Under the pieces are notes generated by a model. It was given only the letters and a program-made list of their open reading frames with translations. It was not told the origin of the DNA and made no database searches. DNA of 64,000 bases. Source: Bacteroidota bacterium. GTDB taxonomy: Bacteria; Bacteroidota; Bacteroidia; NS11-12g; UBA9320. This document shows positions 2,949-34,686 of this stretch, in pieces. The stretch covers positions 1 to 64,000 of the forward strand of contig JAIBDD010000015.1 in assembly GCA_024679565.1 (NCBI GenBank), read 5' to 3'. Position 1 is the stretch's first letter, and each line of letters opens with the position of its first letter. A program made the position numbers and the translations under genes.

Positions 2949-4011
2949 TAATCAATTTGGCACGCACTTTTCTGTTACATCTTTTGGCGAATCTCACGGC
3001 AAACACATCGGAGTAGTTATTGATGGGTGTCCGTCAAACATCGTTATTGATGAAGCCCATCTGCAACAAGAGCTTTCAAGAAGAAGACCCGGACAGAGTG
3101 AGGTAACCACGTCGAGATCAGAGCAAGATATTTTTGAAATCACATCAGGTGTGTTTAATGGCAAAACGACGGGAGCCCCTATTGCGATTTTGATTCCCAA
3201 CAAGGATGCTCGTTCAAAAGACTATAGCGAACTAGAAGATATTTATCGGCCTTCGCATGCTGATTTTACGTACAAAAAAAAGTACGGACATAGAGACTTT
3301 AAAGGAGGCGGTAGGTCATCTGCCAGAATTACAGCTGGCTGGGTGGCTGCAGGTGCGCTTGCAAAGCAAATTCTTGCGACACATTTTGACATTGAAATTT
3401 CGGCGTATGTGAGCCAAATTCATTCCATCAAATGCCCCAAATCCATAGATTATTCTGCAAATGCGATTGAAGACTCGTTAGTGCGTTGCCCAGATGACAC
3501 CTCTAGCAGAAAAATGATAGAGGCAATAAACGCAGCTAAAGAAGAAGGTGATAGCCTTGGGGGAATTGTGAGTTGCGTCATAAAAAACTGCCCCATTGGT
3601 GTTGGAGACCCGGTGTTCAGAAAGCTAAATGCCCAACTAGCCCATGGACAATTTTCCATTAATGCGGTTAAAGGATTTCAAATTGGTAGCGGGTTCAGCT
3701 CAATTGTACAAAAAGGAAGTGAACTCAACGACGAATGGACTTATGACGACGGCAATTACACAACAAAAACCAACAACTCTGGCGGTATTCAAGGCGGTAT
3801 ATCCAATGGCATGCCGATTACGTTCGACACCGCATTTAAACCGACATCAACGATATCCAAAGAACAAACCACCACAAATAATCAAGGTGACCTTGTGGAT
3901 TTAAAGATGCAAGGCAGACACGACCCCTGTGTTGTGCCCAGGGCTGTACCCATCGTTGAAGCGATGGCGGCGCTGACATTAATCGACTTCTTGATTCATC
4001 GTTGCCCATAA
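2941..4011 (+). CDS. aroC: Chorismate synthase
   Basis: Makes chorismate from EPSP using reduced FMN; this is the last shikimate step. The N-terminal signature HFSVTSFGESHG, the block GRSSARITAGWVAAGALA and the C-terminal DPCVVPRAVPIVEAMAA are hallmarks of the family. The 356-residue length is normal. It overlaps aroA by eight bases in another frame. Having aroB, aroA and aroC together gives three of the seven pathway enzymes in one transcription unit. The neighbour after a 52-base gap has its own promoter-like box. Confidence 0.96.
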   Translation: MASNQFGTHFSVTSFGESHGKHIGVVIDGCPSNIVIDEAHLQQELSRRRPGQSEVTTSRSEQDIFEITSGVFNGKTTGAPIAILIPNKDARSKDYSELEDIYRPSHADFTYKKKYGHRDFKGGGRSSARITAGWVAAGALAKQILATHFDIEISAYVSQIHSIKCPKSIDYSANAIEDSLVRCPDDTSSRKMIEAINAAKEEGDSLGGIVSCVIKNCPIGVGDPVFRKLNAQLAHGQFSINAVKGFQIGSGFSSIVQKGSELNDEWTYDDGNYTTKTNNSGGIQGGISNGMPITFDTAFKPTSTISKEQTTTNNQGDLVDLKMQGRHDPCVVPRAVPIVEAMAALTLIDFLIHRCP

Positions 4012-29195: not shown

Positions 29196-29735
29196 TTATT
29201 TCTGGACAATTACTTTACGAACCTCGTTGTGCCATCTTGATTGAATGGATACGAAGTATATCCCGTTTGGAAGTTCTGTTGCGTCTATGGCAACGAAACC
29301 CTGGCTTGCAACCTGTGAAGCGGCAACTTCTTGACCAGCCAAATTAGTAATCCTCACATGCTCAACGTTGGCTCCATTAACATGAATATTAATCTCGTTT
29401 TTAGCCGGGTTTGGATAGACAACAATAGAACGTTGCTCAAAAATATGCACAAGTCTTATTTCTGAATACTCGAACTGACCGTCGAAATCAATTTGCTTTA
29501 CACGGTAATAAATTACCCCATTTGGCACGTTAAGATCTGCGTGGTTATAGTAGTTAACCTCAGTTGAATTACCTGCTCCATTAATGTGCTGACTAACGAC
29601 TTCAAATAGCTCTCCGTCAAGTGAACGTTCAACCACAAAATAGTCATTGTTTTCCTCAGACGCAGTTGACCAATTTAAGTCAACATCATTAGCACCATCT
29701 ATGGTTACTTCAAAATCCAACCAAGTAACAGGCAC
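29196..29735 (-). CDS. C-terminal fragment with T9SS type A sorting domain
   Basis: Begins at a GTG inside the continuation of the giant protein (PVTWLDFEVTIDG). It has a fibronectin-like strand region (LNWSTASEENNDYFVVERS) and ends in the sorting domain VVYPNPAKNEINIHV ... GIYFVSIQ ... VRKVIVQK. PVTW-LDFE followed by the ENNDYFVVERS block is the standard pre-sorting-domain segment in Bacteroidota surface proteins. Standing alone it lacks a signal peptide, so it is best seen as the displaced tail of the upstream frame. Confidence 0.75.
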   Translation of the reverse strand: MPVTWLDFEVTIDGANDVDLNWSTASEENNDYFVVERSLDGELFEVVSQHINGAGNSTEVNYYNHADLNVPNGVIYYRVKQIDFDGQFEYSEIRLVHIFEQRSIVVYPNPAKNEINIHVNGANVEHVRITNLAGQEVAASQVASQGFVAIDATELPNGIYFVSIQSRWHNEVRKVIVQK

Positions 29736-29742
29736 AGGACCA

Positions 29743-32700
29743 TTAAAAGCGATAAAAACCGTAATCGTTTCCTAAATCTTCTTGGTTTGGTCCATCAAAC
29801 TGTGCCGACTCATAATTATCTGTAGTCAATTCAGTTTCGTCTGGGTATGTATTTAAGTTTGTTTCAATTATGTAACTGTTGAATTCTTTACAAAACTGCA
29901 CACCATAAATTGCATAATCAGCATAGTTGGTTGTTGTGCTTCCATTTGTATTGTATCCTGAAATAGTATTTATCGTGTTTTTATCAAACTTGATATAATT
30001 CACATCTCTATCCGCGGTGATAGTGTATTCACCTTTAGATGAAGAAGTGATGGCAATGTTCGTATTGTGATAGAAATTAATTCCATCGGTCGATTCACTA
30101 ATAATAGCATAAGCACCAGACTCAATTGCTTTTAAGTAAATAGAATACTCTTCACCATCTTTTATTCTGCCATCTAATTCAACTATCAGATTATCTGCAT
30201 TGTTGTTATAGGTTGCGAAATTTGTACCAGGCGCACCTAACAAGTTGCTTGGATTGTCTATACTGTATTGGTATTCAACATTATTGATATAACCTTCGTT
30301 ACACACAAAGTCAACTAAGAATTCGTAAGTACCGTCTGTTCCAGTTAACACACTGTCTATTGGGTCTAATTCGTTGTCGTCCAACACACCATCGTCGTCT
30401 TTGTCGTCGTATAAGTAAACCATAACATTTGGCTCGCCATCTTCAGCGTTGTCCAATGTGGTGTCTCTATCGGCGTCAAAAAATACGGTTCCAGCAATAC
30501 GATTCTTACCATCATTGGTTTCACAAGGTAAGTACCAGTTAAACATTGCACTACCTGTTACATAACTATCTCCGTTTGAGTTTGGAGAAGACATGGTAAG
30601 TGTTGCACTTGTCACATTTCCTGGGATATCGTTTAACGACAATGATTGCAAAGTCATTGAACGACCTAGGTCGTAACTATTAATGGTAACCGATTCTGAT
30701 TCTCCTCCAGCCGTTAATGTAAATGTTGCAATACGCGAATCATTATTCATTTCTGCAATTGGCAACACAGCTGTAATATTTTTAGTATTAATCGTGGCTG
30801 GCATGCTGAACGACGTATTGTTCGTATTTTGATACGTGTAATATCTTTCGTCACTTACAGACGTAAAATTGTCGGCGCAGAACTCATCTTTCATGACTAC
30901 ATATGCCGCCATTCCGTGCATCTTGCTTTGGTTGTTCGATACATTCATCGTAACAGAAGATGCAGCTGGAAGCGTTCCTTTATAGTATCCTTTATCAGAA
31001 GTACCCGATACATTGTCTAACGCCTTTGCGTCAGAACCAGACCAAGTAACTGTATTTGTTCCGTTAGTAAAGCTACCAGAAGTTGGCTTTCCACCTTTAT
31101 AAATTCCTTCTACTACGATCTCCTTGATTTCCGAAACAGTTTGTGTTATCAAAATAGTTGTTGAAGACCTATTGTAAGACCCTTTTCCGTATGTGATAAT
31201 ACAAGGGTCATAGTTGTGTGTTTCATCACACTCAGAGTCCTCATTTGAACAATCTTCAGACAACATAACATTAATATCGCCAGATTTAATATGACCATTA
31301 CCTCCTGCAACAGCTAACCACCCTGAGGCACCAAAACCATCTTGCGTAATGTTTGCACCATCTCCCATCTGGAATGCTGGCCCTGCTCTTGAGATTGTCA
31401 TATCTCCGTAGCTTGTTGAAGTAATTGTTCCTTCTGTAGTTTCAAAATACACCCAACCTGTATTGCTTCCTACCGTGAAACAATTGCTGTTCTTCGGACT
31501 ATTCGTTGGAGGAGTTAATGTTCGTCCAGAGAATAATAAGTCCACATCAAATGTTCCGCTCAATCCACTAGCAGAAATATCGTTAGCGATGAATTTAACA
31601 TCACCATTATTATACGATAACCATTGGTATTTTGTGCTGTCACCTTTTAAGTGATGCGCTGCACCATTCTTATCTTTTAGCCAAATCACGTATGGCTTTC
31701 CTGCACAACCTCTAGTATTAGCAACAACTCTTTCACATTCTGGTTGAGGATCTTCACACTCCTCAGTCAACATGATGTTGATGTCTCCGGCTTTAATATG
31801 ACCGGTACCCCCAGAAACAGCTAACCAACCTGACCCACCGAATCCATCTTGTGTTATGTTTGCGCCGTCACCAACGTGGAATGCTGGTCCTTGACGAGTT
31901 ATTGCCATAGTTCCATAGTTAGTAGAAGCTATGCTGCCTGTTGTAGTACTATAGTATTTCCAACCTGAAACACTACTTACTGTAAAGCAAGAACTATATT
32001 TCGGACTATTTACTGGAGGAGTCGTTGTCACTCCAGAGAACAGTAAGTCTACGTCAAAATTCCCACTTAATCCTGGAGCAGATAAATCTTTTCCAATAAA
32101 TTGTACGTCACCATTGGTATACATTTTCCACTGATAATCTGTTGAATCCCCACTTAAATGATGTGCAGATCCATTTTTATCTACCAAATAAATAACATAA
32201 GGTTTGTTGGAACACCCTCTTGTGTTGCCCACAATTACCTTGCAATCTGGAGTCATGTCACATTTCTCTACGTTGACAACCACCGGTATGTCAGCACACC
32301 ACTTGTTTGCACCGGAGGTGCAAACCTCAAATATTACTGTATCTAACCCTGTAAAGCCTGGCGCAGGGACATATGTCAATGACGACTCGCAATCAGGTGC
32401 TCCACCAGAACAAGTTGATCCATCAACGGTCACTGATGATATAACGATTGTACCATACTGCTCACCAGAAATCAACGGTTGACTACAAGAAATGTGAATA
32501 TTTGAAAATTGCAGCAATGATGACCCATCTGCCGACATAATTCTTAGGTAGTGGTTTGCTTGCCATTTCTTTGACTGATTTCGAAGAACCGTAAAGCGTT
32601 CACCTGCATTAACCAATCCTCTATAAAGTGCGTTACTCGTATCTGAAGCATTTGAATTACCACTAACAACGATTAATACCTTTCTTCCTCCAGGAGCAGT

Positions 32701-34503
32701 GTAAGTTGTCACGTTGCTATTAGTTTGACTATTATTTATCTTATTCGACGACACATATTGGTAAGTAATTGCATTTGGTTTGTTACCATTACAACAATCA
32801 ACTCCAGAAGTATAACTGCCAGTTTCTACCATAACAGAACTGCCTGCATTAGATGAAGTACTTGACTGAACCACAACATCTTCTCCGTATATACTATCCA
32901 GGTTCACTAAGTCATCAATGCAAATACTTAGCGTGTCATCTGCACATACTTTCGCCTCTAAGCCTGGCAAAATACACCCGCTTAACATCACGTTAAAATC
33001 TCCATTGGGAAAGTAACCGGCTCCACCTGTAATATTAAACCAGCCTGATGCACCATATCCATCTTGAGTTATGTTAGCGCCATCTCCGATTTGAGCTGCC
33101 GGTCCTTTTCTCGAAACCGTCATTGACCCATAATTCGTTGAAGTAATAGTTCCAGAGGTTGAGTTGAAGTAACCCCATGCTGATGTACTACCAGCCGTAA
33201 AACAGTTAGAATATTTCGGACTGTTTGTTGGAGGAGTATTTGTGTGGCCCGTAAAATTTAACTCCACATTAAACGTACCAGACAACCCTGACGCACTTAA
33301 ACCTTTAGCAATTAACTTAGCATCACCATTATCATATTCGTACCAGTTGTACCTTGATGAATCCCCTTTCAAATAATGTGCGCTTCCATTTTTATCTCTT
33401 AACCAGATAACATATGGTTTGTTAGAACAACCCCTAGTATTTCCAACTACTTTTGAGCAAGTTGGCTCATCCGAAATACAGTCATCTTCCATATCAAGGT
33501 TAAAATCTCCATATGAGAATTTATCCGATCCACCGGCAATATTTACCCAACCACTAGCGCCATAACCAGCCTGAAAAATGTTTGCATCAACACCTAGCTG
33601 AGTAGCTTGACCTTTACGCGAAACAGTCATGTTACCATAATTGGTAGACTTTATTGTTCCTGAGGTAGTTGTAAAATATTCCCAATCAGTAGTTGTAGAC
33701 ACAGTAAAACAAGCACTATATCGTGGGCTACCAGTTGGAGGTGTCGTTGTATTTCCTGAGAAAGTAAAATCTATATCAAAAGAGCCTGTTAGCGTAGATG
33801 TACTAAGTCCTGTTGCTTTCAAACGCATGTCTCCATTGGCGTATTCTTCCCAAACGTAGTTGTTTGTATCACCAGACAAGTAGTGATCTCCTCCTGATTT
33901 GTCTCTTAAGTAAAAGATAAACGGCTTGCTCACGCATCCCGTGTTGTTTCTAATCTTCTTTGTACAGACTGGATCACCTGAGCTACAGTCTTTGACCATA
34001 ACTTTAATCGTATCTTTTAGTGTGCTCCCACACAATGAGGCCGTTAAAACATAATCCGTCGTTTCTGTTGGACTAACGGTAATTGATTTTGTTGTTTCAC
34101 CAGAGCTCCAAGCGTAGGTGGCTGTACACGTTTTTTCATACGTAATGGCATCAATCTTAAACGGCGAACATCCTTTATTAATGATATTAAAATCTCCATT
34201 GGTTGTAACGCATATGTCTCGGTATGAACTTCCACATACGTACTTAGATGCAATTAGGGTATAATCAGACCCGTATGCATACATATCCTTTGCACCAAAC
34301 ACTTTAAAATATGCTGTACCAGAAGGTACCTTAATACGTATTTTCAATTTTGTGCCTGACGGCAAATTACACGGAAGCGACCAAACTGGTCCAGTGTATT
34401 TCCCAGAGTTTCCTCTGCAGAAATAGGCTCCATTTCCGTCGGGAGCACCTAAGGCATTTGTTGGATTTGAAACCACTCCTTGATAGGCAAGTAAGCTTTC
34501 CAA
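29743..34503 (-). CDS. Body of the T9SS repeat protein (four 162-residue modules, SdrD B domain)
   Basis: An open frame of 1,586 codons, in the same frame as the signal-peptide fragment. Residues 1-125 resemble a discoidin/galactose-binding domain (NPTNALGAPDGNG), and a similar one recurs at about 1405-1540 (NPSNLLGAPG). Residues 128-170 are Ig-like (YAWSSGETTKSITVSP). The four modules start at residues 180, 349, 754 and 923. An SdrD-type B domain is near 1335-1400 (GTVFFDADRD, YLYDDKDDDG), a calcium-binding fold in other bacteria. With no signal peptide of its own and no sorting tail, this piece alone could not be secreted. Confidence 0.7.
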   Translation of the reverse strand: MESLLAYQGVVSNPTNALGAPDGNGAYFCRGNSGKYTGPVWSLPCNLPSGTKLKIRIKVPSGTAYFKVFGAKDMYAYGSDYTLIASKYVCGSSYRDICVTTNGDFNIINKGCSPFKIDAITYEKTCTATYAWSSGETTKSITVSPTETTDYVLTASLCGSTLKDTIKVMVKDCSSGDPVCTKKIRNNTGCVSKPFIFYLRDKSGGDHYLSGDTNNYVWEEYANGDMRLKATGLSTSTLTGSFDIDFTFSGNTTTPPTGSPRYSACFTVSTTTDWEYFTTTSGTIKSTNYGNMTVSRKGQATQLGVDANIFQAGYGASGWVNIAGGSDKFSYGDFNLDMEDDCISDEPTCSKVVGNTRGCSNKPYVIWLRDKNGSAHYLKGDSSRYNWYEYDNGDAKLIAKGLSASGLSGTFNVELNFTGHTNTPPTNSPKYSNCFTAGSTSAWGYFNSTSGTITSTNYGSMTVSRKGPAAQIGDGANITQDGYGASGWFNITGGAGYFPNGDFNVMLSGCILPGLEAKVCADDTLSICIDDLVNLDSIYGEDVVVQSSTSSNAGSSVMVETGSYTSGVDCCNGNKPNAITYQYVSSNKINNSQTNSNVTTYTAPGGRKVLIVVSGNSNASDTSNALYRGLVNAGERFTVLRNQSKKWQANHYLRIMSADGSSLLQFSNIHISCSQPLISGEQYGTIVISSVTVDGSTCSGGAPDCESSLTYVPAPGFTGLDTVIFEVCTSGANKWCADIPVVVNVEKCDMTPDCKVIVGNTRGCSNKPYVIYLVDKNGSAHHLSGDSTDYQWKMYTNGDVQFIGKDLSAPGLSGNFDVDLLFSGVTTTPPVNSPKYSSCFTVSSVSGWKYYSTTTGSIASTNYGTMAITRQGPAFHVGDGANITQDGFGGSGWLAVSGGTGHIKAGDINIMLTEECEDPQPECERVVANTRGCAGKPYVIWLKDKNGAAHHLKGDSTKYQWLSYNNGDVKFIANDISASGLSGTFDVDLLFSGRTLTPPTNSPKNSNCFTVGSNTGWVYFETTEGTITSTSYGDMTISRAGPAFQMGDGANITQDGFGASGWLAVAGGNGHIKSGDINVMLSEDCSNEDSECDETHNYDPCIITYGKGSYNRSSTTILITQTVSEIKEIVVEGIYKGGKPTSGSFTNGTNTVTWSGSDAKALDNVSGTSDKGYYKGTLPAASSVTMNVSNNQSKMHGMAAYVVMKDEFCADNFTSVSDERYYTYQNTNNTSFSMPATINTKNITAVLPIAEMNNDSRIATFTLTAGGESESVTINSYDLGRSMTLQSLSLNDIPGNVTSATLTMSSPNSNGDSYVTGSAMFNWYLPCETNDGKNRIAGTVFFDADRDTTLDNAEDGEPNVMVYLYDDKDDDGVLDDNELDPIDSVLTGTDGTYEFLVDFVCNEGYINNVEYQYSIDNPSNLLGAPGTNFATYNNNADNLIVELDGRIKDGEEYSIYLKAIESGAYAIISESTDGINFYHNTNIAITSSSKGEYTITADRDVNYIKFDKNTINTISGYNTNGSTTTNYADYAIYGVQFCKEFNSYIIETNLNTYPDETELTTDNYESAQFDGPNQEDLGNDYGFYRF
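31249..33966 (-). repeat. Four copies of a 162-residue module inside the T9SS protein
   Basis: Copies lie at 33478-33966, 32974-33459, 31756-32244 and 31249-31737. Each starts with a Cys-containing strand and [N]NTRGC, then KPYVIxLxDKNGxAHxLxGDS, a Y..W motif, the block PPTNSPKYSxCFT, the block STNYGxMxxSRxGPA and DGANITQDGxGxSGW, and ends in GDxNxMLxxxC. Conserved cysteines at both ends and in the middle suggest a disulfide-stabilised fold. Copies 2, 3 and 4 are closer to each other than to copy 1. A segment of about 240 residues separates copies 2 and 3. I do not recognise the module. Confidence 0.85.
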
Positions 34504-34527
34504 ATTTCCTGTTAATTTAAAGTTTTC

Positions 34528-34686
34528 TTAAGGGGTGAGTGTTGCGGAACTGTCAGAACACACTTCAACGTCATTTCCTAAATCAATGCTGCCACAAGTT
34601 TGGGCAGAGACAAAATGAGCAGATAGCAAAACACTAAAAATAACGGCAAGTGTTTTAACACCGTTGTGGTAAAATTTTCTAATCAT
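34528..34686 (-). CDS. N-terminal fragment of the T9SS repeat protein (signal peptide)
   Basis: The ATG at 34686 gives MIRKFYHNGVKTL, a hydrophobic core and the cleavage site FVSAQ, a clear signal peptide. The mature start, CGSIDLGNDVEVCSDSSATLTP as split by the stop after TLTP, is the opening of an Ig-like domain often found in Bacteroidota surface proteins. The frame is the same as that of the downstream 1,586-codon body. The first codon of the open stretch (34719) is less likely as start because it precedes the signal peptide by 11 residues. Confidence 0.65.
   Translation of the reverse strand: MIRKFYHNGVKTLAVIFSVLLSAHFVSAQTCGSIDLGNDVEVCSDSSATLTP

Follow-up and report, generated by a model that had tools for sequence, protein, structure and literature searches.

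A giant type IX-secreted surface-protein gene in a Bacteroidota genome, interrupted by a stop and a probable deletion scar, reads as a young pseudogene

The interrupted giant gene on the minus strand of the window (the whole stretch of 64,000 nucleotides analysed here) is very probably a recently inactivated gene, a young pseudogene, for a giant type IX-secreted, adhesin-like surface protein, and would represent ordinary gene loss and not a special decoding of the gene. Read along this strand, a 52-codon signal-peptide piece is followed by an in-frame TAA, an open body of 1,594 codons and a type IX (T9SS) sorting tail that is off by one base (Table 1). The body terminates with a TAA at 29743-29745, joins the tail at the four-base run 29745-29748, and comprises 1,586 codons when counted from a TTG at 34503, which eight open codons precede. 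An earlier note made from the window sequence had placed the signal-peptide piece and the body in one frame, with only the TAA between them and eight open codons after it, and the coordinates of that layout hold. Because orthologues match the body at 70-83% identity over long stretches, its openness is not due to chance. The tail matches the C-terminal sorting-domain profiles of T9SS type A cargo (TIGR04183 / PF18962, E 3e-15 and 6e-13) above their cut-offs, and the signal-peptide-like piece expected of Sec-dependent export, whose counterpart shares a polypeptide with the sorting domain in the relative G002, is cut off from it by the TAA in the genome that contains the window (G000). With signal peptide, body and sorting tail never joined, the protein would now not be exported.

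Table 1. Positions in the window of the pieces and lesions of the interrupted gene.
Feature	Positions	Strand	Remarks
N-terminal piece, 52 codons, signal-peptide-like start (by inspection)	34531..34686	-	ATG at 34686; begins MIRKFYHNGVKTLAVIFSVLLSAHFVSAQ, ends LTP
Premature in-frame TAA	34528..34530	-	threonine codon in relatives: ACT (G002), ACC (G004)
Open body, 1,594 codons	29746..34527	-	same frame as signal-peptide piece; several ~165-residue repeat copies and C-terminal SdrD-like part
DUF7467 domain, body residues 583-697	32437..32781	-	E 1.3e-16
Frame-break region: body end GNDYGFYRF and TAA	29743..29781	-	probable scar of ~1.4-kb deletion; relatives' DUF2341/LamG block absent
T9SS type A sorting tail, +1 frame relative to body	29196..29747	-	coding 29747-29199, stop 29196-29198
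Por_Secre_tail / TIGR04183 domain proper	29205..29420	-	domain profile matches in tail

The repeat of about 165 residues in the body follows the pattern NTxGCxxKPYVIxLxDKNGSAHHLxGD ... DGANITQDGFGASGW ... GDINVML, and no Pfam model reaches its cut-off on it. It recurs in giant proteins of the family, being found in the window at 29746-34527 (minus strand) and also at the loci L022, L023, L024, L025 and L026.

Evidence for a single original gene comes from G002, a member of the same genus, where the same syntenic slot holds an intact orthologue of 1,722 residues, free of stops and shifts (G002:C17:206257-211425, that is L023:2758-7926), flanked by ATP-synthase genes on one side and by glycosyltransferase and transaldolase genes on the other. 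The two genes share the signal peptide, the repeat domains, the SdrD-like part, the T9SS sorting tail and their neighbours, whereas the G002 orthologue is one continuous frame, has fewer repeat domains and carries a DUF2341 and Laminin_G_3 block ahead of the tail. The N-terminal piece of the window gene aligns in frame with G002 (60% amino-acid identity) and with the record G004 described below (80%), and a gene of another genus of the family, in G009, likewise runs for 1,922 codons without a break and includes the LamG block. The proposal that the pieces belong to one gene with one in-frame stop and one frame break is borne out by this comparison; measured against an intact orthologue, the window gene carries the frame-disrupting lesions that mark a pseudogene. 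When 46 genes of the window were compared with G002, every break except the one in this gene was attributed to an artefact of start extension or of an antisense frame. Of the named genome collection, a scan picked out G004 alone, the wider order yielded no further close orthologue, and a literature search returned nothing specific to this locus.

The frame break near the 3′ end looks like a deletion scar because it sits where the DUF2341/LamG block of the relatives should be. About ten bases at the junction are unmatched in the relatives, and a stretch of about 1.4 kb of G002 and G004, including the LamG block that is also present in G009, is missing. On the left side of the junction, the alignment of G000 with G004 runs along the SdrD end through GGAAACGATTACGGTTTT, and on the right side the tail of G000 aligns with the sequence that follows the LamG block. 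Within G004, CAACGATTACAG at the LamG end stands in a reading phase that differs from that of the SdrD end. Read in the frame of the tail, the bases upstream of it give TITVFIAFNGPVPVTW; the LamG end of G004 has the similar ATITDSSGCGAVPVTW, but FNGPV is also close to FNGPVEM at the SdrD end of that record. A deletion of about 1.4 kb between short direct repeats (AACGATTAC-like, at the ends of the SdrD and LamG parts and in different phases) would join the SdrD end to the LamG end and leave the observed frame offset, and this comparison of aligned ends makes a deletion scar, and not a one-base slip, the best fit. The one-base frame shift that had been described at the four-base run is real, but it is not simply an extra homopolymer base, and the suggestion that correcting a single-base error would restore an ordinary intact gene finds no support at a junction that looks like a rearrangement scar without the domain block of the relatives. 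Relocation of the missing block within the genome by phase variation or shuffling was rejected, as the LamG block has no match anywhere in the G000 genome while the positive controls G002, G004 and G009 score strongly.

The sister species G001, with about 86% DNA identity to the window genome over the syntenic block, has lost nearly the whole gene from the same slot. Its remnant (G001:C37, L088:5072-5660) consists of the bases upstream of the gene and its initial 30 bases, followed at once by a tail with 87% amino-acid identity to that of the window; these parts are common to both species, whereas the whole body is deleted in G001, and no strong match to the body was found in its genome. The body may have been lost via a short repeat (ACGGTKTT-like). 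The bases adjoining the tail (YATCGCTTTTAAYGG) are common to G000 and G001, and the end points of two separate deletions must therefore lie only a few bases apart, a coincidence unless repeat-driven that counts against the preferred explanation, as does the early TAA, which differs from the threonine codons of the relatives by at least two bases. A simple ten-base insertion inherited by both species was rejected because it conflicts with the strong constraint under which the tail has evolved since the two diverged. Comparison with orthologues thus upheld the single gene that had been read from one genome, and G002 has it intact, but the neat pair of stop and slip gave way to a probable deletion scar and a near-complete loss in the sister species.

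The pattern of substitution places the damage late. Between G000 and G001 the tail shows a dN of 0.063 and a dS of 0.692 (dN/dS 0.091), the dS lying within the range of neighbouring genes (0.32 to 2.1), and 57 of its 80 differences fall at third positions. Only 23 amino-acid changes are seen against a neutral simulated mean of 54.5 (minimum 42 in 2,000 runs), which indicates that the tail remained in use over most of the period that followed the split of the two species. In the body, the 75 amino-acid changes on the G000 branch against 48 on the G004 branch at first seemed an excess pointing to relaxed selection (p 0.019); this candidate was rejected, as the ratio matches the background of 776:645 in 35 neighbouring genes (Fisher p 0.19). 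Given the strong constraint on the tail and the normal evolution of the body, the damage is recent, and a frame break inherited from a common ancestor by two dead genes is at odds with the constrained tail. The losses in G000 and G001 are both recent and probably independent. The earlier view that the decay is not old agrees with simulation, in which a neutral body at 2% divergence stays free of stops in only about 2% of runs. Young bacterial pseudogenes arising by nonsense mutation and deletion likewise show few lesions, an open body, an intact relative and parallel loss in a sister, and the present locus does not differ from them in substance. The tails of G000 and G001 are 45-49% identical to those of G002 and G004 (45-46% for G002 against the window gene, where the body reaches 69%), while G002 and G004 tails share 65% and bodies 69-81%; these identities mark the G000/G001 tail as unusually divergent and suggest that it was exchanged, or was fast-evolving, before the gene broke.

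An assembly or consensus error, or a minority or strain-mixed metagenome variant, with the gene intact in the organism, is an unlikely alternative to recent inactivation. The window genome is an assembly of 54 contigs with 91% completeness, and indel errors seem to be present here in the related assembly of G004, in the neighbouring transaldolase too. Apart from this gene, however, the genes of the G000 window show no such damage in the comparison with G002, the lesion is the absence of about 1.4 kb and not a homopolymer slip, and the sister species is damaged in its own way at the same place. The junction sequence is single-copy in the G000 genome, with no repeat misjoin evident, and repeat-driven misassembly was rejected on this ground.

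The G004 record (CALSTB010000005.1, a metagenome-assembled Bacteroidia record; L022, G004:C5 110-118 kb) also has its signal peptide followed by a stop and its tail preceded by a +1 break, at positions differing from those in G000. Its transaldolase and the gene beyond are frameshifted as well, the shifted stretch of the transaldolase keeping a normal codon structure, and the clustered frameshifts of G004, which hit conserved genes such as that for transaldolase, are probably sequencing or consensus errors. As they look like such errors, the G004 breaks give no support to conserved recoding, which this double lesion had first made attractive and which was rejected because the positions differ and the neighbours are frameshifted. 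A public assembly with indel errors can thus mimic a conserved double lesion.

Programmed recoding, in which readthrough of the early TAA and a +1 frameshift at CGC UUU UAA (a UUU-U slip by the stop, resembling the RF2 site) would yield the full protein, is very improbable. A UUU followed by a zero-frame stop is a plausible +1 slip site, G001 has CGCTTTTAA-YGG ahead of its tail too, and the tail is under constraint. Recoding is nevertheless disfavoured because neither break is conserved: the full-length orthologue in G002 is open throughout, without the shift expected of a prfB-like site, G004 has none at this place and its differing interruptions lie in an error-rich stretch, and both relatives have sense codons where the early TAA stands. 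Two rare events in series would leave almost no product, and in G001 the site would do no more than attach to the tail 13 residues that lack a signal peptide. Genome-wide reassignment of the stop finds no support either, since TAA ends neighbouring genes. The readthrough and frameshifting that the earlier note had considered necessary for production of the protein are not supported: neither site is conserved in the relatives, and other damaged genes of G000 contain all three stops, TAA, TAG and TGA, as inactivating codons. A variant in which the UUU-UAA site common with G001 is a working +1 signal that keeps the tail selected, with the early TAA read through to give a very rare surface protein, is extremely doubtful. 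Comparison with relatives is what separates a fresh pseudogene from recoding here. That the body, the tail or both function as genes in their own right, each with its own start, is hardly credible: although the tail frame is kept in G000 and G001 and the body is open from the TTG, inspection shows no export signal, a requirement for T9SS cargo, on either piece, the relatives encode a single continuous protein, and recent loss explains the constraint equally well.

The preferred reading of recent inactivation has parallels elsewhere in G000. Among about 147 genes comparable with G001 in the fetched stretches, two others have clear breaks in G000 while their G001 orthologues are open, the remaining flags being read as start extensions or spurious frames. 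In a caspase/TPR gene (L093, G000 C23, about 33.7-37.9 kb of the contig) CAA has become TAA and one base is deleted; in a DUF6089 gene (L103, G000 C5, about 43.1-43.9 kb) CAG has become TAG and CGA has become TGA. Matches to the tail number 25 in G000, 29 in G001, 46 in G002 and 45 in G004, differences of which part may reflect completeness, and accessory surface genes of this kind seem to be disappearing from the lineage. On contig C41 of G000 (L027:2560-6429), a sigma-54 response regulator has an internal TAG (3484-3486) and the adjoining T9SS protein is frameshifted inside its tail (~6158), the pair forming a second damaged surface-gene module.
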